From: Clostridiales bacterium
Lineage (GTDB): Bacteria; Bacillota; Clostridia; Lachnospirales; Lachnospiraceae
DNA length: 37,919 nt
Direction: 5' to 3'
NCBI GenBank assembly: GCA_029012085.1
Contig: JAQXLK010000320.1
Location: 1-37,919, forward strand
This document shows, piece after piece, positions 27,949 through 37,919 of this stretch. The translations under genes and the position numbers were made by a program. The notes under the pieces are model-generated. The model was not told where the DNA came from, ran no database searches, and worked only from the letters and a program-made list of their open reading frames with translations. Position 1 is the first letter of the stretch. Each line of letters opens with the position of its first letter.

Positions 27949-29463
27949 ATGAAGAATGGCTTCAAGAAAAAAATAGTTGTTTTAGTTCTGATAGGATTGT
28001 CTTTTTATTTGTTAATGGGACAAGAATGGATTAATCTTCAAAGGGATTCCGCAACTTATACAGAGCCTAGTGGAGGAACAGGCGTTATGCCAATATATCC
28101 AATGTTTATATTTCTTATGAAATGTATATTTGGGGTCGAGCATTATCTGAACGCTGTTGTAGTTATACAATCTTTATTGGCAGTATTTTGTACTTTAGCT
28201 TTTGTGCTATACCTTCGTAACCGTTTTCAATTAAAGTTTTGGGAAGTTTTATTAATGTATTTTGCGTGTATGCTGCCATTTTCCATTTACCTTCCAGAAA
28301 CCGGAATAACCCACCAGATTTTAACGGAGGGAATTTCCTATTCCCTCTTTTACATCTATTTCATAGCATTAGCACAATATGTATATGTGAAAAAAAGCAA
28401 ATGGCTACTTCCACTTATTGCAATGTCTATGATAATTGCATTAACAAGAAGCCAGCTCTTGCTCCTGATTATTGTTGATGTGGTAGCTTTTTGGTATGTT
28501 TGTTTCAAAAATTGTATGAGAATAAAATTATTCCCCCAAATTATGAAGCTGTTCATGGCTTTAATTGGAAGTGCAGTAGCAGCGCTGCTTCTGGTAATAA
28601 TTGTCTATAAGATTTGCGGGTTATATTTAGTGATGGCCGTGCCCATGATTCAAAATTATGGAAATGAGGTCGCAGAGACGGTCAACATAGAACAAACTAA
28701 TATAGGAGAAATAAATATCGAGGAACGAACCATAGAAGAACAGACAATGGAAGAGCAGGCAAGCGGGGAAGTTCCTTCTGAGGTTATAGTGCCGGAAGTA
28801 AAGCTGTCGCAGTTTACATCAGTAATACTTATCAGAGGACTTTACGAAGCCGATGAAGATGATGTGTTGCTTTTTGATATGCCTGAAAAAAAAGAGATAT
28901 TTCAAAGGGTGTATAAGGCAATAGATGAGCAAGAATATCGGTATGTATATGCTAAGGAAGGTCTGTATATGTGGGAGGATTTGATTTGTGAGAGGATTGC
29001 GGCAATGGTGCCACAGATACTTCATTCATATTTGGAAGAACATCCAGAGGTACATATAGATCCGAATGCAGTGATTAGTGAACTAGGAATGAAAGTGCTT
29101 CTTCATCATTTTGGAAGGTATTTGTATCATACGTTCAGGTTAGCAATACCGGGATTTATCAGTAGTGTTTTCTTCCAAATAAGAAGGATATACTTATTGT
29201 GTCATTTCATTACACTGATGCTCTATTTAATCGGGATTGTAGGATGCGTTAAAGTTAGAAAAAAGAGAGCAGAAGTTTCGGAATTTATGGCTGTAATTAT
29301 AGCATTTCTCATTATTATGGTGGGGGTAACCAATGTTGTTTTTATTGGGCTTCAACGCTATATGGTTTATGGTATGGGTATTTTTTATTGTGGATTATAT
29401 ATGATTTTGAAAGAGCAAGTAAAGGGATATAGAAAAGAAATATGGAACTACATACATTTGTAA
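27949..29463 (+). CDS. Polytopic membrane protein, possible GT-C-type glycosyltransferase
   Basis: Predicted 504 aa protein with hydrophobic segments from about residue 8 to 225 and again from 400 to 490. The first outer loop (residues about 28-48) holds RDSATYTEPSGGTG, a position where GT-C enzymes keep acidic residues. The two membrane halves are separated by about 170 hydrophilic residues that open with an acidic imperfect repeat (ERTIEEQTMEEQ). GAGG at 27937-27940 precedes the ATG at 27949. The end overlaps the last GT2 by 22 bases. I do not recognise the family; an ArnT/PMT-like or DUF6056-like role on the outer face is only a topology-based guess. Confidence 0.7.
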   Translation: MKNGFKKKIVVLVLIGLSFYLLMGQEWINLQRDSATYTEPSGGTGVMPIYPMFIFLMKCIFGVEHYLNAVVVIQSLLAVFCTLAFVLYLRNRFQLKFWEVLLMYFACMLPFSIYLPETGITHQILTEGISYSLFYIYFIALAQYVYVKKSKWLLPLIAMSMIIALTRSQLLLLIIVDVVAFWYVCFKNCMRIKLFPQIMKLFMALIGSAVAALLLVIIVYKICGLYLVMAVPMIQNYGNEVAETVNIEQTNIGEINIEERTIEEQTMEEQASGEVPSEVIVPEVKLSQFTSVILIRGLYEADEDDVLLFDMPEKKEIFQRVYKAIDEQEYRYVYAKEGLYMWEDLICERIAAMVPQILHSYLEEHPEVHIDPNAVISELGMKVLLHHFGRYLYHTFRLAIPGFISSVFFQIRRIYLLCHFITLMLYLIGIVGCVKVRKKRAEVSEFMAVIIAFLIIMVGVTNVVFIGLQRYMVYGMGIFYCGLYMILKEQVKGYRKEIWNYIHL

Positions 29464-30227
29464 TATGTGCTTATAGGGAAAGTCAATATCTTGAAGAATG
29501 TATTCAATCTCTTTTAAACCAGTCAACTAAGAGCAGGATTCTTATAGCTACGTCTACACCCAATGATTATATTGATGAATTAAGCAGACGTTATCATTTG
29601 GAGGTATGTCTGAATGCGCAAGGGGAATGCATAGCAGATGACTGGAATTTTGCATATGAGCAGGCTGACAGCAAATACGTAACATTGGCACATCAGGATG
29701 ATGTTTACGAACCTGATTATGTAAAGACAATGTTGGAACAATTGGAAAAAGCAAGAAATCCACTTATGTTTTTTTCAAACTATGGGGAGATACGAGAAGG
29801 AAATAAGATACAGTCAAACCTGCTTTTGCGTATAAAAAGAATTCTACTTGTTCCAATTTATTTTAGTAAGCTACGAGGATGCAAACGTATTAAGAGGGGA
29901 ATTTTGGCATTTGGTAATCCGATTTGCTGTCCATCGGTAACCCTTGTGAAAGAGAATATGCCATATCCGGTTTTTGAGAACCATTTCAAATCAAATCTGG
30001 ACTGGGAGGCATGGGAGAAAGCCGCAGGCAGAGACGGGAGCTTCGAATTTAGCAGAAAAATACTGATGTATCATAGAATACATGATGGTTCTGAAACAAC
30101 AGCACTGATTAGTGATAAAGGGCGAAACAAGGAAGATTATGAGATGCTATGCAAATTTTGGACACCTCGGATAGCTCAAATTTATCACAGAATATACAGC
30201 AAAGGTGAGAACTCCAACAAATTATAG
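29442..30227 (+). CDS. Glycosyltransferase family 2-like (last gene of the cluster)
   Basis: Predicted 261 aa GT-A-like protein, shorter than the other GT2 genes here. It has FVICAYRESQYLEECIQSLL, a conserved WNFAYEQADSKYV and the metal-site-like LAHQDDVYEPDYV, plus SNLDWEAWEKAAGRDG and YHRIHDGSETT near the end. The usual DDGSTD element is replaced by TSTPNDY, as in a distinct clostridial subgroup. It overlaps the upstream membrane protein by 22 bases. The mobile island begins 25 bases after its stop, so any terminator or further cluster genes are now separated from it. Confidence 0.85.
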   Translation: MELHTFVICAYRESQYLEECIQSLLNQSTKSRILIATSTPNDYIDELSRRYHLEVCLNAQGECIADDWNFAYEQADSKYVTLAHQDDVYEPDYVKTMLEQLEKARNPLMFFSNYGEIREGNKIQSNLLLRIKRILLVPIYFSKLRGCKRIKRGILAFGNPICCPSVTLVKENMPYPVFENHFKSNLDWEAWEKAAGRDGSFEFSRKILMYHRIHDGSETTALISDKGRNKEDYEMLCKFWTPRIAQIYHRIYSKGENSNKL

Positions 30228-30252
30228 TTCTTAACAAAGAATTTCATATAAT

Positions 30253-30262
30253 GTAAGCACCC
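30253..30262 (+). repeat. IS66 terminal end, outer left
   Basis: GTAAGCACCC begins 78 bases downstream of the transposase stop, where IS66-family elements end with a GTAAGC-type inverted repeat. About 12 of the first 24 bases match the opposite end at 36716-36739 read on the other strand. Confidence 0.6.
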
Positions 30263-30288
30263 AACAATCGGGCGTTCTTCCTAAATAT

Positions 30289-30321
30289 CTCGCATCCATG
30301 CAATGGCTTGCTAGATGCGAG
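30289..30321. terminator. Hairpin at the IS66 end
   Basis: CTCGCATC (30289-30296) pairs perfectly with GATGCGAG (30314-30321) across a 17-base loop, followed on the + strand by CATTTTACTTTAATTATTTTT. It could stop transcription leaving the glycan operon, replacing the operon's own terminator, or end the minus-strand transposase message. A similar, G-U-rich hairpin lies at the matching place in the right remnant (about 36671-36703). Confidence 0.5.
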
Positions 30322-30806
30322 CATTTTACTTTAATTATTTTTGCATACATCTATCACAGACTCATTCCAGGGAGCAATCATTTCTAGCCGTTCATCGGAC
30401 CAGTTATTATCCGGACGCTGTTCAAGGATGTATGTTAAGTATTTATAAATGTTTAGATTATTGGCTTTTGCCATCTCCATGATACTGTAGGAGATGGCGC
30501 TTGATTCAGCTCCTTGCGGAGAAGCACTGAACAGCCAGTTCTTTCTGCCGACTGTGAATGGCCGGATTGCATTTTCAGATAGATTATTGTGTAAGCTGCA
30601 TCGTCCGTCTTCTAAGTAGGTATCCAGAAATTCACGGCGATTGCTGATATAGGTCACAGCTTTGTCCGGTCTGGAATTCTTGACTGGGTTCTGTGCTTCA
30701 AGCCACGACCCAAAGACCTCCCCAATAGGCTGTTACTTTTGGAGACGAAGCTTATAACGCTCTTCATATGAAACATGTTTCTTGTTAATAGAAGAAGGAT
30801 AAAAAT

Positions 30807-30860
30807 GAAACAGGATTAAACAGCTCATAATGAACCGTTTAGTCCTGTTTCTTTATTATT
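30807..30860 (+). terminator. Rho-independent terminator-like hairpin
   Basis: GAAACAGGATTAAAC (30807-30821) pairs with GTTTAGTCCTGTTTC (30837-30851) over 15 positions with one G-T wobble and a 15-base loop, followed by TTTATTATT. No + strand gene ends just before it, so it may be an element end carried with the adjacent repeat array, or insulate the island from read-through of the glycan operon. Confidence 0.6.
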
Positions 30861-30870
30861 GAAAGTTCAG

Positions 30871-30943
30871 ACCCTCAAACCAAACCCTCAAGCTAGCCCC
30901 TCACGAACGACCCTCAAGTTTGCCCCTCAAACTAGACCCTCAA
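30871..30943 (+). repeat. 13-base-period CCCTCA repeat array, left
   Basis: Six units of the form (A/C)CCCTCA(A/C) followed by five variable bases start at 30871, 30884, 30897, 30910, 30923 and 30936, exactly 13 bases apart. A seventh, imperfect copy (CCCTTCAA) follows out of phase near 30952. A period of 13 is not a coding period. The same unit occurs on the opposite strand at 37414-37538. Confidence 0.9.
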
Positions 30944-31218
30944 AAAGAGTGCCCTTCAAAAACTTCGATTACTACAGATGTCAGATCCTTTATTCAGTTG
31001 TATGCCTGCAATGGATAGTATGATATTCCTCTAAAACTACAGTATTTGCTGTGGTCTAAGAGAAATACCAAACGCATCTGCAATAGTAGGGAAAATCCTC
31101 ATGTAACTTTTGGGATTCTAATTGTGCAATAAACACGCGAAGTAGAACTTCCGGGCAGAATGAAAGCTTGTGGATGTACACCTATAACAGTTCCATGGTA
31201 GCCAAATAGGCAACAATA

Positions 31219-31230
31219 GAACTATAGTTC
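31219..31230. promoter_or_regulatory. Perfect 12-base palindrome, candidate operator
   Basis: GAACTATAGTTC is a perfect inverted repeat centred about 33 bases upstream of the TATAAT at 31255, overlapping or abutting where a -35 element would lie. A dimeric regulator bound here would affect the promoter of the metallopeptidase pair. No regulator gene is adjacent. Confidence 0.4.
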
Positions 31231-31251
31231 CTACAAAAATATGGAATAAAA

Positions 31252-31260
31252 TGATATAAT
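31252..31260 (+). promoter_or_regulatory. Extended -10 promoter upstream of the gene pair
   Basis: TGATATAAT gives a perfect -10 hexamer (31255-31260) with the TG extension. The -35 position (TACAAA, 31232-31237, 17-base spacer) is weak, as is common for extended -10 promoters. Transcription would start near 31267, leaving about 370 bases before the ATG at 31639. Confidence 0.55.
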
Positions 31261-31324
31261 TTGTTGAATCTGTTTTGCATGAAGAAGGGAAAAGCTTTAA
31301 TATCAATTTTCGGCTTTCAGATTT

Positions 31325-31552
31325 TTGCATAAAAACAATTATGAAAAAGCTATTGAAAACGACTTCCCAAATTGGTTGGTAAATATCCAGAAAGATAAAT
31401 TAAGAGTCGATGAGTATAAAAGAATTGTTGAAGATGAAATCCGGTATGAAAATATGTTGGAGCATGTTTACAAATATACTTTGATAGGACAGTATTATAA
31501 ATTTTTTGCCTTAATTATTGATATTGAGAAAAATGCAAGTTTTAGTCTGTGA
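31325..31552 (+). CDS. Small hypothetical protein or gene fragment
   Basis: A 75 aa frame opening at TTG 31325 without a clear RBS. The sequence looks protein-like, with EKAIENDFPNWLVNIQKDK and EDEIRYENMLEHVYKY, and is charged and helical, but I recognise no family. The frame is open back to 31301. Overlapping its 3' end, a second frame from ATG 31533 to 31676 encodes 47 aa with CESCSRPWHFYYVVC; the two may be pieces of one frameshifted gene. It lies between the promoter at 31252 and the membrane protein at 31639, so it could also be a remnant inside a long leader. Confidence 0.35.
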   Translation: MHKNNYEKAIENDFPNWLVNIQKDKLRVDEYKRIVEDEIRYENMLEHVYKYTLIGQYYKFFALIIDIEKNASFSL

Positions 31553-31638
31553 AAGTTGCAGCAGACCATGGCATTTCTATTATGTCGTTTGCATGAAGGA
31601 GCATATAGCGTTATTAAGACTTCTTAGGAGAAAAATGC

Positions 31639-32901
31639 ATGAATATAATAAAAGCTATTATAGCGTTTGTGAGTAGTGGGTTAGGAATCTTATTTTTGGT
31701 ATTAGGATTAGGAATTGATTTGACATATTCCGGAAGAATAGATTGCTCTTTTTTACAAAGGGTAATTAATGCTCTGAAGGAAATTCTTATACCTATCGGC
31801 TGCAGCTATCATAAGGCTGGCGAGATTATATCTGGTAGCATGGGGATTTCATTTACAACTCTTTCACTATTATTATCAATGGGCATAAATTTGTCAAATA
31901 GATTTGAAATTAAAATATTTGGTATACCTAGATGGGAGTTGGGAGTGTCCGCGGCTCATAAAATGTATAATTGGTTTCGTGTATTGATTTATGTTTTTCC
32001 ATTTGTTATGCTCATATGCGTTAACTTGGAATTTTATGTGCTAGGACACTTGGTTTTGGCATACAGTATGATTTTTTTGATTGTCGAATATATGCTTATA
32101 ATTAGAAGCTATAAATGGAATAAAAATATTGATTTTACAGTGACGAAACTTATTAAGGTCTTTGAGAACAAGAATAATAAGAATATTAGTAACTATTCAG
32201 AGTATCAAGTATGGTTGGAAGAGATAAGACTTGGAATAGAAAAGTCGGACGGCTGGGAAAAGGCAGAACAATTATATGAACATTTTGTACAGAGGGTTTC
32301 TGAATTCCGAGATGAAAAATGTTATATTAGCAGTTATTTCTTTTTTGATATTATATTTTGCAAAGGTAAACAACCCGAATTAAACGATAGTGCATTAAGA
32401 TGTATAAAAAGTTATATATGTCAACTCTATGATAGGAATAATAAAAAATGGAATGAGGTTGTATTTTGTTCTTTAATGAAGGTAGCTTTTAGATATTGGG
32501 ATGAAGCACAAATATATGACTTTTTAAAATGGTTTTTAGATTATACAAATAGAAGTGAAGGAGGAGACATAAATAAGATTAGGTTTATTGAAGCAGAACA
32601 GGTAATCCAAATAAATATTCTTTTGGTTATGATTGAAGAGTGGAAATCACATCAAAAAAAATATAATGGATTATTGAATTCAATTTTAAACGTAATGTGG
32701 TTTCAAGGAGAACTGTCAATTGAATGTGGGGATAAATACTTAAGATTGTTTGAAATTATTCATGATACAGAAAAGCAGTTAAGATATAAAGATGATAACA
32801 CATTAAAAGCTTATGAAAATTTGCAGAAAGACTTTGAAAAAAATCATGGAATAAGTTTTATTGGCAATACGATAAGAAAAGAAATGAGGTTTAATGAATG
32901 A
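31639..32901 (+). CDS. Four-helix membrane protein of the island gene pair, unknown family
   Basis: Predicted 420 aa. AGGAG at 31626-31630 is eight bases before ATG 31639. Four hydrophobic segments lie at about residues 5-28, 66-85, 113-130 and 134-155; the remaining 260 residues are hydrophilic, rich in Lys, Glu, Trp and Tyr, look helical and probably sit in the cytoplasm. A conserved-looking stretch after the second helix reads FGIPRWELG. No enzymatic motif is seen. The stop overlaps the start of the 924 aa gene by four bases (ATGA), so the two are made together and probably interact, for instance as a membrane anchor or effector with a peptidase partner. Base composition is much more AT-rich than the glycan genes, pointing to separate acquisition. 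Confidence 0.8.
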   Translation: MNIIKAIIAFVSSGLGILFLVLGLGIDLTYSGRIDCSFLQRVINALKEILIPIGCSYHKAGEIISGSMGISFTTLSLLLSMGINLSNRFEIKIFGIPRWELGVSAAHKMYNWFRVLIYVFPFVMLICVNLEFYVLGHLVLAYSMIFLIVEYMLIIRSYKWNKNIDFTVTKLIKVFENKNNKNISNYSEYQVWLEEIRLGIEKSDGWEKAEQLYEHFVQRVSEFRDEKCYISSYFFFDIIFCKGKQPELNDSALRCIKSYICQLYDRNNKKWNEVVFCSLMKVAFRYWDEAQIYDFLKWFLDYTNRSEGGDINKIRFIEAEQVIQINILLVMIEEWKSHQKKYNGLLNSILNVMWFQGELSIECGDKYLRLFEIIHDTEKQLRYKDDNTLKAYENLQKDFEKNHGISFIGNTIRKEMRFNE

Positions 32902-35672
32902 AGGATAATGTTTGCAGGGCTATTACTTTTATCAATTATCATATTCCGATTAGATGGGATAGCAATATTTCAGTACAGTATTCTACAGTAGGTTTTTTTG
33001 ATGGATTATTTACAAAACGTATTAATATTAATTATGAAGAGGATGATTTGAAGCCATTGTGGCAGCATACTAGTAGATTGACTGCTGAAAATGAAGGCTA
33101 CTATTCCTATCAAAATATATTTGGCTTTAGCAGGGACACATGGAACAATATAAGTGATGAAATATTTTGGAACAAATCTACAGATGAAGACTATCCACTG
33201 ACCTTTGTAGTCTTTTTACAGATTAGGGACTATTTGACTGATGCCCATACAATAGAAAGTCAGTGTAGAGCTTTTAGCAATGTGATTGATGAGAAATTAA
33301 GAGGAATAGGAAAAGCATATACATATGGTACAATAGATAAAAACGATTTTGTGGTATGTATCAAGAGCAAAAAGTATGAAAATGCAGTAGGGGCAATTAA
33401 AGCACTGCATGATGCAGGTGTAAACGTCGTATATAGTTATACAATTTTTTCTGTCAATAATGAAGTTCTTAAAAATCTAAATGAGGATAAATACAGGTAC
33501 CTTTCAGATGAAATAATTCCATCTATATGTTTGAAAGGGATAGTTAACAGTTTTGAAACTGGCTCCTCAATTGCTTTAGATAGGAAATATCGTCAATTTT
33601 GTGATATTCTTATTCAAAGATTATATGGGGATGATGATCCAAGTAAAAAAATAGAAGAAGATAAAAATAAGGTTTTATATGATATACTTGGGGATAATGA
33701 TTTTCGTCTTATAGCTAGAAACGTACCTCTTAGAAAAATACTTAGGGAATATGCACCGGGGGGGATTTTGTGTTATACGGAACAAGTGTTTCCTTATTAT
33801 CTTTTTTCATCCAGTTTGGTATTGAATACTTGCACAGGAAAAAAAGAGGAAATTGAGGATAGCGAAATAAAAAATGCAATTGAAATGATGCGGAGAGAAT
33901 TTACATGCCATATGTGTGACAATTTGTCCGAGCAAATGGAAGGGATTTTGGAGGTTGTGAAAAAAAAATCCTTAAAAAAAGAGGATAGAGTAATATCAAT
34001 ATGTCAAGCAATTTTTCAATTACTTCAGTCTTTAAAAGTATTGGAAGAAGCACCTACTAAAAAATATGACTTTTATTCATTATATTTACCATTGGAGTCT
34101 CTTGTACAAATTCTTGAATCAAAAATACATGACCCTGATATTGGAAATGTTAAAATGATTTATGAATTTATTCACAAAATAAGCATGACTTTGCATGGTA
34201 CATTAAGAACAGATATACAGTTTTTTCAAATTAGGGATTTTAATGTGATAGTGCATTATGCGCCAGCCAAAATAAGAGCATTTTATGCATTGTGGGCAAT
34301 GAAAATCAGGGATTTTTATAAAAAATTTGTGCTTGAGGGACAAAGTTCGCCGCATGAATATTCATTCATTTTGGCTCCAGGAATGTATAAAGGAACAGCG
34401 GTAAGACAATTGTTTGAGAATAGCCAAGAGGAAAAACGTCTAATGCTAATAACGTTGCCGGAAAGACATATTTATTCACCACGATGGATAACGATTGTTT
34501 TAGCGCATGAGGTATCCCATTTTGTTGGGAGTGGCATTAGAAATAGGAAAGAAAGGCATACGGTATGGCTTAGATTGATTGCCCGGATACTGGAATTGGA
34601 ATTGCAGGCACTATTTTACAGAGAACTTCTATGTATATCTCATACTGAAGTTATGAGTGCTTATAAGAAAAATCCAGATCTGCTTACACAGATTGAAGAC
34701 CAGTTAATAAAAACGGAAGAGAAAATAAGAAGAGAAAATGAGGATAAAAAGGAGTATATATTTCATTCAAAACAATCAATTGAGATTATAATGGAATCTT
34801 ATAGGAAATTTCTAGTTTATTATATAGAACAGATATTGACAAATTTTAGTTGTAATATTAAATATTTTATTTCTGATTCGCGTAAAAAGAATTCAATAAA
34901 AGCCTCAGAAGAGGATATAAGAATAGTCTGCAATAGGGCTACTGAAGATATGAAGCTTTTTTGTAATGAAATTGGGAAAGTGGTTTTTGCAAAAATTCTT
35001 AATCTATTTCATGTGTTGACATCAGAAACTTTTGCAGACATTATGGCAATACTTACTTTAGAGTTATCCTTAGAAGATTATATTAGATCTTTTTTGAAAA
35101 CGGAATTAGGAGAACATGAAGGCGAAATAAGAGAAGATAATACAATAACATTTATAGATGTAAGAATTGCTATAGTTGTAGAGACAATATCTGGAATATT
35201 TAGTGGTAATCCTAATACAAGATTATATTTTTCGAATTATTCTAATTGGATTAATAATCCAATTAGACGTTTGAAGACTGCAAAAACACTTACTGTGGAT
35301 GAAAGAAAAATTTTGGAAGCAGTAAGTATGTTTCTTAAAAAGAAATGTGCATTGTCTTCTAAAATAAATTGTTATAATGCTATTTATGATTCGAGTAGCC
35401 GTAGCTTTAAGGGGAGCAATAGTGATTTTTTAAGGGATGAAAAGGTTTTTGACCTGATATGTGGCTATTTGAGGGGATGTGCTAAACTCTATATTGAAAA
35501 AGTAGTCGAATCGAAAGATGTGGAAGAGTGCAGAAATGATATTCTTAAGACATATAGAAATATTTCAAAAAAAACAGAGATTGACCTTATGGAAGAAATA
35601 GAAAATTTCCTTTCAGGAGCAGAAAGTGAATATGCCAATAAAAAGTTTAGTGATGAAATTTTCGGATGCTGA
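32898..35672 (+). CDS. Large protein with HEVSH zinc-metallopeptidase motif, unknown family
   Basis: Predicted 924 aa, no signal peptide or membrane helix. Centrally LAHEVSHFVGSG provides a zinc-binding HExxH (His537, Glu538, His541) after a hydrophobic beta-like run. ETFADIMAI about 170 residues later supplies Glu710 and Asp714, the pattern of a third ligand in Glu-zincins. The N-terminal about 230 residues contain TVGFFDGLF, YYSYQNIFGFS and, at about 140-190, a beta-rich stretch with GTIDKNDFVVCIKS and VVYSYTIF that may be a ferredoxin-like sensor or degenerate cyclase domain (inference). Between lie helical segments and FNVIVHYAPAKIRAFYALWAM. ATGA overlap couples it to the membrane protein; GAGG at 32886-32889. 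A9 and A7 runs occur near 33960-33980. I know no named family. Confidence 0.82.
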   Translation: MKDNVCRAITFINYHIPIRWDSNISVQYSTVGFFDGLFTKRININYEEDDLKPLWQHTSRLTAENEGYYSYQNIFGFSRDTWNNISDEIFWNKSTDEDYPLTFVVFLQIRDYLTDAHTIESQCRAFSNVIDEKLRGIGKAYTYGTIDKNDFVVCIKSKKYENAVGAIKALHDAGVNVVYSYTIFSVNNEVLKNLNEDKYRYLSDEIIPSICLKGIVNSFETGSSIALDRKYRQFCDILIQRLYGDDDPSKKIEEDKNKVLYDILGDNDFRLIARNVPLRKILREYAPGGILCYTEQVFPYYLFSSSLVLNTCTGKKEEIEDSEIKNAIEMMRREFTCHMCDNLSEQMEGILEVVKKKSLKKEDRVISICQAIFQLLQSLKVLEEAPTKKYDFYSLYLPLESLVQILESKIHDPDIGNVKMIYEFIHKISMTLHGTLRTDIQFFQIRDFNVIVHYAPAKIRAFYALWAMKIRDFYKKFVLEGQSSPHEYSFILAPGMYKGTAVRQLFENSQEEKRLMLITLPERHIYSPRWITIVLAHEVSHFVGSGIRNRKERHTVWLRLIARILELELQALFYRELLCISHTEVMSAYKKNPDLLTQIEDQLIKTEEKIRRENEDKKEYIFHSKQSIEIIMESYRKFLVYYIEQILTNFSCNIKYFISDSRKKNSIKASEEDIRIVCNRATEDMKLFCNEIGKVVFAKILNLFHVLTSETFADIMAILTLELSLEDYIRSFLKTELGEHEGEIREDNTITFIDVRIAIVVETISGIFSGNPNTRLYFSNYSNWINNPIRRLKTAKTLTVDERKILEAVSMFLKKKCALSSKINCYNAIYDSSSRSFKGSNSDFLRDEKVFDLICGYLRGCAKLYIEKVVESKDVEECRNDILKTYRNISKKTEIDLMEEIENFLSGAESEYANKKFSDEIFGC

Positions 35673-35780
35673 AGTGAAAGTTTATATCCACATTGAAAAC
35701 ATCAATTGAAAAGTGGCATTTATTCTTACAGAAAGTGAGAGCGTTTCAAGTTTTGTGTTAACTCAAAAATCTGACATTTA
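35673..35780. other. Short junction between cargo and right IS66 remnant
   Basis: About 108 AT-rich bases between the metallopeptidase stop and the first IS66-like codons. No strong terminator hairpin is visible. Confidence 0.5.
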
Positions 35781-36739
35781 CAGCCGATGTACGATTTCTT
35801 CCATCAGAAACTTCTTTATCGAAGATTTTTAATGATGGAGGAAACACTGGCACAAGTCCTAAAGGAAGATGAGAGGCGAGCTCAGGCGAAATCTTATTTC
35901 CGGGTAATCCGTACCGGAGAGGATGGACTTAATCCTATCGTCCTCTATAATTACACTCCTACGAGAGCAGGAGAAAATGCCAAACGGTTCTTAAACGGAA
36001 TCACCCCCGGATTCTATTTGATGGCTGACGGATATTAGGGATACAATAAAGTACAGGAAACAAACCGCTGCTGTTGCTGGGCACATATCCGCAGGTATCT
36101 TTTGGAATCCATACCAAAGGGAATGGATAAGGATTATACTAATCCTGCAGTCCAGGGTTTTCTCTATTGTGAAAAACCGTTCACTTATGAGCGTTCCTAT
36201 AGGGAAAAAGGTCTTAGCTATAAGCAAATATACACACCCGCCGCCTCAAAGACGAAAAACCGGTTATTGAAGGCTTTTTGGCGTGGTTAAATCAAGCAGA
36301 TCCCGGCAGTAACGGAAAACTTAAAAAGGCAATCACCTATATCAGGAATCGGGAAGACTTCCTGATGACCTACTTAGAGGATGGCCGTTGTAGCTTTAGT
36401 AACAACTTGAGCGAGAACAGCATTCGTCCTGTGACAGTAGGACATAAAAACTGGCTATTCTCTAATCACCGGAAGGTGCTCGGGCTAACACGCTGTATCT
36501 CACAATTGTTGATATGACAAAAGCCTATGGTCTGGATCTATACAAATATCTGAATTTCCTGTTTGAACAAAGACCTAACAAGGATATGTCAGATGAAAAA
36601 CTCGAAAAACTAGCTCCGTGGAATGAAAGTGTGAAGGAGCTTTGTAGTATAAAATAGGGTAAAACGCTTGCATTTCGGATTTCTAGCATGAGATTCGGAA
36701 TACATTTTTAGGGCTACACCCCCTAAATTAAGCGCTTAC
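35781..36739 (+). pseudogene. IS66-family transposase remnant with stops and frameshifts
   Basis: Reads as the central and C-terminal IS66 transposase. Frame one gives PMYDFFHQKLLYRRF, EETLAQVLKE (the family's DET is EET, losing the first catalytic Asp), VLYNYTPTRAGENAKRFLNG and LMADGY followed by TAG at 36036-36038 where family members continue GYN. The same frame goes on to about 36240, then a frameshift leads into LKDEKPVIEGFLAWLNQ and CSFSNNLSENSIRP, GHKNWLFSN. A probable single-base loss near 36463 shifts the end into PEGARANTLYLTIVDMTKAYG and APWNESVKELCSIK, stopping with TAG at 36654-36656. The element end follows at 36739. Clearly non-functional. Confidence 0.88.
36728..36739 (-). repeat. 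IS66 terminal end, outer right
   Basis: Read on the minus strand from 36739 it is GTAAGCGCTTAA, sharing GTAAGC and scattered further bases with the left end at 30253. It lies 83 bases after the transposase stop. Confidence 0.6.
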
Positions 36740-37114
36740 GATATAAAATATTCCTTCTCGCGATATTGTATAATCCAATTATATATTAGAGACGGGGGTA
36801 TCCAATTTTTTTCGCTACTAATTTTACAGGTTCTTCATTGATAGGATGATGTTTTATTATACACTATTTCCTATCGCTTGGAATTTGTCGCTTTCAATAA
36901 TAAAAGTGCTATGAATATTTGTTCTTGTGTGTGACCCATGTTTTATCACATGTTATGTAGACCAACTTTTTGACCGCATCTCTCAAAGTGGAAATAAACT
37001 TTTCACTTCAGTAAAAAATTTAGGATGAAGTTTCAAGAATAATTTTCTTGCATTTATATATAATATAGTCTATACTTTAAAAGTAATTTATACGTTTTGG
37101 ATAGGAGATAATAT
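36740..37114. other. AT-rich intergenic region with promoter
   Basis: No gene recognised. It may resume the sequence that originally followed the glycan cluster. Small inverted repeats occur (CATGT/ACATG near 36949-36963; AGTGGAAA/TTTTCACT near 36989-37009), and a good promoter lies at its end. Confidence 0.5.
37048..37076 (+). promoter_or_regulatory. Sigma-A-type promoter
   Basis: TTGCAT (37048-37053) and TATACT (37071-37076) are separated by exactly 17 bases. The predicted start is about 30 bases before the ATG of the 54 aa ORF at 37115. Confidence 0.6.
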
Positions 37115-37279
37115 ATGAATAATGATATCATTGTGGCATTTGCGAAAGAACGTTTTAGCATATTTGATGGATATGTGTCCGTTCCCATTTTTGATGCTCC
37201 TACTAACTATAGCAGTTATCATGACAGTGAAATTGATCGGCAGATTGTAGTAACTCTGCCGGATGATGGTTGTGATTAG
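37115..37279 (+). CDS. Small protein of 54 aa, unknown function
   Basis: ATG 37115 follows AGGAG (37103-37107) by seven bases and a well-spaced promoter at 37048-37076; stop TAG at 37277-37279. The product begins MNNDIIVAFAKERFSIFDGY and ends LPDDGCD. It is acidic, with no helix long enough to cross a membrane and no motif I recognise. The combination of promoter, RBS and protein-like composition makes it better supported than the other short frames nearby. It could also be the surviving N-terminus of a larger gene. Confidence 0.55.
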   Translation: MNNDIIVAFAKERFSIFDGYVSVPIFDAPTNYSSYHDSEIDRQIVVTLPDDGCD

Positions 37280-37413
37280 GAAAATATATACCAATAAAAG
37301 CACCTAACGAGACTGTGAAAAGCTTGGATTTGTTGATAAACTAAAGGAAAAGTATCTTCTATGTGATATAATTAGTATATCAAACATGGGAGGTATTTGG
37401 ATAATCAAAGTTC

Positions 37414-37538
37414 TTGAGGGTTTGCCAAACTTGTTGAGGGTCTTTCGTGAGGGTTTGGTACAAAAAATAGCATAGTTGTTGAGGGTTCTTCGTGAGGGGT
37501 TGAATTGAGGGTCTTTCATGAGGGGCTAACTTGAGGGT
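37414..37538 (-). repeat. 13-base-period CCCTCA repeat array, right (inverted)
   Basis: On the + strand eight units of (T/G/A)TGAGGG(T/G) start at 37414, 37434, 37447, 37479, 37492, 37505, 37518 and 37531. The last five, and the pair 37434/37447, keep exact 13-base spacing; two gaps of 20 and 32 bases interrupt it. TTGAGGGT and (G/A)TGAGGGG tend to alternate, giving a 26-base super-unit. This is the reverse-strand counterpart of the array at 30871-30943. Confidence 0.9.
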
Positions 37539-37545
37539 ATGAGAC

Positions 37546-37570
37546 AGGGTCTGGCATAACTCCAGACCCT
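37546..37570. terminator. Hairpin after the minus-strand gene
   Basis: AGGGTCTGG (37546-37554) pairs with CCAGACCCT (37562-37570), nine perfect pairs with a 7-base loop, 11 bases past the stop of the 68 aa minus-strand gene. It probably terminates that transcript, though the run of T residues is poor on either strand. Confidence 0.55.
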
Positions 37571-37580
37571 TAAATATTAT

Positions 37581-37787
37581 TTAGTCTATTTCGTATTCTT
37601 CCGGATAAGGGATTCCGTGCTCATCCAGGAGATGCCGCAGCTCTTGGATATATTTGTATTTGCGTTCAATCTCTATCCAGTTTCCGTGGCACAACGTGTG
37701 GCATTCTTCTAATTCTTGTCTTGTGATTTCATAATCAAGCCAGAGTATGCATTTATGATCTTTGCTAAAAGCGCAGTAGTTTTCCAT
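37581..37787 (-). CDS. Small protein of 68 aa downstream of transposase
   Basis: The start ATG (37785-37787 on the minus strand) is fixed by a strong AAGGAGG (37793-37799) five bases upstream, which overlaps the stop of the transposase-like gene before it. The protein begins MENYCAFSKDHKCILWLDYE, contains three further Cys/His positions (CHTLCHG) and ends PYPEEYEID. A longer frame starting further upstream (to 37850) lacks an RBS. I do not recognise the family; the overlap suggests an accessory protein of the same insertion element. Confidence 0.65.
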   Translation of the reverse strand: MENYCAFSKDHKCILWLDYEITRQELEECHTLCHGNWIEIERKYKYIQELRHLLDEHGIPYPEEYEID

Positions 37788-37797
37788 AGGATCCTCC

Positions 37798-37919
37798 TTA
37801 AAATTCATCTTCTTCAAAATATGTGACAGGATTATGATCAGACATTCCATTTAGAACCGGAGCTGACCGTGTGGCATAGAGGAAGCGATTCCTGAAATGT
37901 TCAAAATTTCGAAAGCCTC
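37798..37919 (-). CDS. Probable ISL3-family transposase, C-terminal end
   Basis: A minus-strand frame enters from the window edge and stops with TAA at 37798-37800. Its 39 residues start GFRNFEHFRNRFLYATR, resembling the GYRNFxNFRNR ending of ISL3-type DDE transposases, and finish TYFEEDEF. Only the tail is present, so the family call is tentative. Together with the coupled 68 aa gene and the hairpin it marks a second insertion element next to the island. Confidence 0.55.
   Translation of the reverse strand, partial: GFRNFEHFRNRFLYATRSAPVLNGMSDHNPVTYFEEDEF

Follow-up and report, generated by a model that had tools for sequence, protein, structure and literature searches.

Anti-phage systems are usually built from a constant core and exchangeable partners, often of the effector type, e.g., the cyclic oligonucleotide-based anti-phage signalling system (CBASS), Thoeris and similar ones. 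SIR2, SLATT and FRG are effector or conflict-enzyme domains and not sensors. Gluzincins such as thermolysin (M4) carry an HExxH motif, then an ExxxD motif. The present analysis deals with two adjacent genes, called A and B, of a Clostridiales bacterium belonging to the Lachnospiraceae. They are located in a window of 37,919 nucleotides (nt), i.e., the whole stretch of DNA that was analysed (contig JAQXLK010000320.1). Gene A encodes a membrane protein and gene B a protein with both HExxH and ExxxD. The pair is probably an unnamed module of bacterial self-defence: it has the layout of modular immune systems and a core without a name.

The gene B family is similar to CBASS and Thoeris in having a constant core and varied effectors, including SIR2 and the two-transmembrane SLATT. 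It differs from them in that the window pair has no match to CD-NTase, TIR or reverse transcriptase in Pfam, PADLOC or NCBIfam and that its core, an HExxH protein, has no name; in the absence of a CD-NTase match in Pfam or PADLOC, the pair is not CBASS. Gene B shares with gluzincins the succession of HExxH and ExxxD and differs from them by a spacing of about 169 residues, an added R-x-R-x2-R and the lack of any credible sequence similarity found.

Two other kinds of system can be compared. The DS-2 defence system (DefensePredictor) needs a diadenylate cyclase, and protection is lost when the predicted catalytic residues of this enzyme are changed (PMC13092281). A domain of the same DAC type (DisA-like) is found in the partner at 8 loci related to the window pair. 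On the contrary, the window pair itself has no such partner, and the variant of the relatives has N instead of the last R of RHR and adjoins an HExxH core. Nuclease-protease antiviral pairs associate a trypsin-like protease with a nuclease (PMC12799240). The likeness lies in the possible activation of an effector by a protein of the protease type; the difference is that an HExxH protein is associated here with a membrane protein, SIR2 or a DisA-like variant. Among the matches listed, no title or abstract was found to join an HExxH core to these partners.

The gene pair and the partners of gene B

Both open reading frames (ORFs) are present as announced by the original prediction (420 and 924 amino acids (aa), HExxH in the larger one), and the end of gene A is joined to the start of gene B by a 4-nt ATGA overlap. 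The four helices claimed for gene A depend on the cut-off. At a permissive hydropathy value of 1.4, windows are found at about residues 1, 63, 109 and 128 (plus a weak one around 314), and at 1.6 only three hydrophobic segments are left. Judging from hydropathy, gene A likely has about four N-terminal transmembrane (TM) segments; its C-terminal portion of about 250 aa is mostly hydrophilic.

Twenty-two loci were studied (the window, L017-L028, L050-L052 and L053-L058). At each of the 22, gene B has an adjoining or fused partner; the gaps, where measured, range from -35 to 364 nt. The partner is of the membrane type at 11 loci, a variant DisA-like protein at 8 (one with a SLATT gene in addition), SIR2 at 2 and a fused FRG domain at 1. 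Pairing among homologues and retention of HExxH had been fixed beforehand as the points on which the original prediction could fall; the pairing is constant and 20 of the 21 aligned rows retain HExxH. The anatomy of a conflict module, also predicted, is recovered in the form of a constant core with four types of exchangeable partners, often effector-like. The membrane protein, presented as the partner, is the partner at half of the loci and one type among several.

In the clade of the window the partner precedes gene B; the two overlap by 4 nt in the window, L053 and L055. This upstream partner is a membrane protein in the window, L017, L053, L055, L057 and L058. The L054 and L056 partners are fragmentary: in L054 an ORF of 247 aa close to the start of the contig (partner-profile match 1.8e-22), in L056 two ORFs (2.3e-18 and 2.8e-17). 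The more distant L020, L026 and L028 have a membrane protein upstream as well. A pattern [YFL]G[IV][PSR]x3[LV] between TM segments 2 and 3 (FGIPRWEL in gene A), drawn up post hoc after inspection of the sequences, is found in 8 of the 9 membrane partners tested, including two of L020, L026 and L028. It must be noticed that the gene B core is split across two ORFs in L020, L026 and L056, the partner being also split in the latter, which suggests decay or an assembly error.

The DisA-like partners (L018, L019, L021-L025 and L027) are soluble proteins with the DisA-like domain at their end; their gene follows gene B in L018 and L019 and precedes it at the other six loci. Pfam DAC is above its cut-off in four and DACNH in three of the eight. 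Matches below the cut-off were obtained for L022 and L024 (which have only such matches) and for L018 (DACNH only), and L027 has neither, so that 7 of 8 have a DACNH or DAC match of some strength. The motifs DG[AS], G[AS]RxNS and S[ED]D are aligned in 8/8. In the motif test for diadenylate cyclase, DG[AS] is present in 8/8 and RHR in 0/8: the latter reads R[HYF]N in all eight, as compared with RHR in the CdaA-like protein of the window's own genome. Because of this replacement the activity may differ, i.e., these partners may make or bind a different nucleotide. The DisA-like partner profile matched 6 of 290 genomes of the family. Four matches (G226, G309, G424 and G467) are near-full-length and all are beside a gene B core, these four being among the 8 sequences used to build the profile; of the other two, one spans 31 residues and one is a stretch containing stops. 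No near-full-length DisA-like partner was found away from a gene B core among the 290 genomes.

The remaining partners belong to named families. In L021 a third gene, SLATT_5, overlaps the end of gene B (Pfam 3.8e-10, PADLOC RTasSLATT 1.6e-14). A SIR2-like gene immediately follows gene B in L050 (Pfam 5.9e-17, PADLOC ThsA 5.5e-15) and L051 (Pfam 3.8e-10). In L052 an FRG domain is fused to gene B (Pfam 1.5e-20).

The gene B family is rare. The single-sequence query matched 13 and the 11-member profile 16 of 397 genomes of the same family (own genome counted in both cases); the latter gave no match in the sole other genome of the same genus in that sample. A 14-member profile run on 398 genomes from the phylum matched the own genome only. 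Seven loci were obtained from the GTDB contigs, scanned with an alignment of two members plus two peptide patterns, six from Lachnospiraceae (including L059, which is the same locus as L017) and one from «Bacterium D16-50», while the scan with gene B alone gave none although relatives do exist. These contig scans and some of the viral and phage scans use 1-6 short peptide patterns each, and absence from them is weak evidence. The plasmid matches of L052 (319 records) were set aside, since the 20 listed cover solely the FRG part (residues 894-1212).

The gene B tree has 19 rows (L026, L051 and L056 omitted). The window clade is supported at 100/100, L018 and L019, with DisA-like partners, adjoin it (84/88), and the six remaining rows with such partners group together (95/97). 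The partner labels require 5 changes on the tree, for a possible minimum of 4 and a shuffled mean of 8.7; one of the 5 stems solely from the separate label «TM?» of L054. Within the window clade, identity to the window is 18-26% for the partner (5 relatives) vs. 36-44% for gene B (6 relatives).

The predicted metal site of gene B

As announced by the original prediction, no nameable family was found: Pfam, PADLOC and NCBIfam gave no credible match for either protein of the pair. Among solved structures (Protein Data Bank), there is no credible relative of gene B and nothing convincing for the gene A family or the DisA-like partners. The 14 members of the gene B family, run against the libraries, gave no named family, one member having an FRG domain. 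Weak matches to a hantavirus glycoprotein were put down to chance. The 14-member profile also matched RNase L (E value 8.5e-4); this alignment covers the ExxxD region, HExxH being outside, with a poor helical alignment and an accuracy of 0.67, and it was treated as chance, though not excluded.

A single HExxH arises in 152 of 5000 shuffles of the window gene B, so a lone HExxH is weak evidence. The 21-row alignment comprises 21 of the 22 loci (L056, with its split gene B, is excluded; L020 and L026 are represented by one ORF piece each). The only row without HExxH is L051. Concerning ExxxD, Glu is found in 20/21 rows (Asp in L051) and Asp in 21/21; in a smaller alignment E710-x3-D714 is invariant in 11/11. 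The L051 gene B begins at a contig edge, has an in-frame stop 19 codons in and may be a decayed copy. The residues shared by all 14 members of a further alignment are (L023 numbering) M1, Y475, H545, E546, H549, R558, R561, E761 and D765. They comprise the predicted metal site, a tyrosine and two arginines from R-x-R-x2-R (R548, R550 and R553 in the window, after HEVSH). Such a set is what selection on a putative active metal centre would leave. The pattern of gene B is gluzincin-like, from which zinc binding and a zincin fold are predicted.

The N-terminal third of gene B contains a strand-like motif with Gly and Asp (residues about 28-36, 143-151 and 261-269), whose second and third stretches align weakly (hhalign probability 27). 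These stretches are perhaps part of tandem ferredoxin-like domains with a GxxD-strand repeat.

A candidate switch and its rivals

A defence role of the pair is likely. The more precise reading, to which we give an even chance, is that of a two-gene conflict module, probably anti-phage and abortive, in which gene B would be a peptidase-type switch and gene A the effector. It relies on the variation of the partner (SIR2, FRG, DisA-like and membrane types) around a constant core, for which the best reading is that the core is the sensor and switch and the partner the killing or signalling arm. We infer the mechanism as follows: (i) the long N-terminal region of gene B probably senses the trigger, presumably of phage origin; (ii) infection would activate gene B; (iii) gene B would license gene A, the most likely means being to cleave it proteolytically or to free it from a B-A complex, a proposal made because the core carries a conserved metal-site pattern of the peptidase type; (iv) gene A once licensed would damage the membrane and stop the infected cell.

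A broader view, held tentatively and with the chances somewhat against it, is that the whole family is an immune hub, i.e., one HExxH core serving unrelated partners with proteolysis as the shared step of activation. In that case, part of the catalytic motif of the DisA-like domain would be gone, and the domain may produce or perceive a different nucleotide.

The neighbourhood of the relatives is suggestive only as regards defence genes. Sixteen neighbours, picked by size, motif or position, were scanned singly, with no background control, and 4 of them, at 3 loci, gave PADLOC matches: AbiLi-like in L028 (4.1e-66), AriA-like in L024 (5.1e-36), MkoA-like (3.5e-50) and DpdF-like (2.9e-197) in L055.

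Several results weigh against the switch reading or weaken it. Twelve of these 16 neighbours have no PADLOC match, and the tested neighbours in the window are a glycosyltransferase, an unmatched protein and an IS66 remnant. No peptidase family is above chance (WLM 0.079 and M48 0.16, for one member each of 14). No relative of gene B was found in the viral, plasmid and phage scans. The partners of L020, L026 and L028 give hhalign probabilities of 0.1-20 with gene A, i.e., their homology is undemonstrated, and the L054 partner ORF is the C-terminal part only, without membrane segments. As for the DisA-like partners, only half of them pass the Pfam DAC cut-off, the two that were scanned (L023 and L024) have no PADLOC match, and the gaps to gene B reach 274-364 nt in L024, L025 and L027. 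Lastly, several branches of the gene B tree are long and its deeper order is unsure.

The main rival of the switch reading reverses the roles: gene B would be the effector, a toxic peptidase kept inactive by its partner, and the partners would be sensors or regulators. It is consistent with HExxH and ExxxD being the constant part and with the fast divergence of the partner, as can be the case for sensors facing phage proteins. It is nevertheless unlikely, since SIR2, SLATT and FRG belong to effectors or conflict enzymes and their exchange fits better with the core as the switch. That the HExxH fold of gene B is a non-peptidase module (a metal-dependent ligand sensor or another hydrolase) that cleaves no protein would agree with the lack of a convincing match to peptidase families or solved structures; very divergent members nevertheless retain the general-base Glu together with the ExxxD pair, as expected for catalysis, and this is the least probable of the explanations considered.

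The overlap of the genes and their position between IS66 remnants and inverted arrays would also suit a toxin-antitoxin or addiction pair of a mobile element, with gene A as a membrane toxin degraded or masked by gene B. This is quite improbable: gene B is very large for an antitoxin, the SIR2 or DisA-like partners would demand one antidote for unrelated toxins, and no relatives were found in 72,556 plasmid records (queries window, L023 and L050). It is very doubtful, too, that the pair is a housekeeping or surface-glycan membrane protease pair merely lying beside a polysaccharide locus. One neighbour is indeed a glycosyltransferase, and the neighbour tally of the relatives (86 of the 168 listed ORFs plus one outside that list) includes glycan, sortase and two-component families among the 25 commonest of 165 and of 110 families. 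Against this stand the patchy distribution of gene B (16/397, none in the other genome of the genus), the relatives with SIR2, FRG and DisA-like partners, and the AT-rich stretch between IS remnants.

If the switch reading is true, an unnamed type of system is added to bacterial immunity, proteins left unnamed by Pfam, NCBIfam and PADLOC gain a role, a DisA-like variant is tied to conflict, and the family offers a clean test of one sensor driving unrelated effectors.

Composition and flanks of the pair

Features of the gene pair and of its flanks (window positions).
Feature	Position	Strand	Remark
Gene A	31639..32901	+	420 aa, ATG start; membrane protein
Gene B	32898..35672	+	924 aa, ATG start; core protein with HExxH and distal ExxxD
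AGGAG, likely ribosome-binding site of gene A	31626..31630	+	assigned by eye
HEVSH, predicted zinc-binding catalytic motif	34506..34520	+	residues 537-541
E710-x3-D714, predicted third zinc ligand and His-orienting Asp	35025..35039	+	
IS66-type transposase remnant, probable, left flank	30331..30657	-	71-nt inverted match (73%) to the right remnant
Broken IS66-type transposase, right flank	35787..36517	+	Pfam match, plus a further ORF (36278-36517) by inspection
CCCTCA-unit array, 13-nt period, left	30869..30943	+	
CCCTCA-unit array, inverted, right	37426..37541	-	

The guanine-cytosine content of the pair is 0.308 and the minimum for any other 4034-nt stretch at positions 1-30230 is 0.351; the AT-richness that had been claimed is thus confirmed. 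The claim of an own promoter was rejected: 33 promoter-like sites are found at 30200-37919 vs. a shuffled mean of 34.6, i.e., no excess over the chance level.

The bracket of mobile elements is also recovered. On the right, ORF 35787-36038 matches Pfam DDE_Tnp_IS66 at 9.1e-14; on the left, the probable assignment comes from the inverted nucleotide match. The inverted CCCTCA arrays complete the bracket and enclose about 6.7 kb, containing the gene pair and an IS66 remnant. The three-unit CCCTCA pattern has 7 matches in the draft genome, all within the two arrays. Of 73 loci, 65 lack the two-unit pattern and the other 8 are pieces of this window. The arrays look like iterated protein-binding sites ending a mobile element of unknown type. 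Because of the IS66 remnants and of these arrays found nowhere else in the draft genome, a mobile element may have carried the pair in.

The surface-glycan locus said to lie alongside is supported by one of the two left neighbours run against Pfam, a glycosyltransferase (29442-30227), and the other is without credible match. A weak homing-endonuclease match of the small ORF 31325-31552 was put down to chance. Beyond the right array, close to the contig end, an 89-aa ORF is located at 37581-37850 on the reverse strand.

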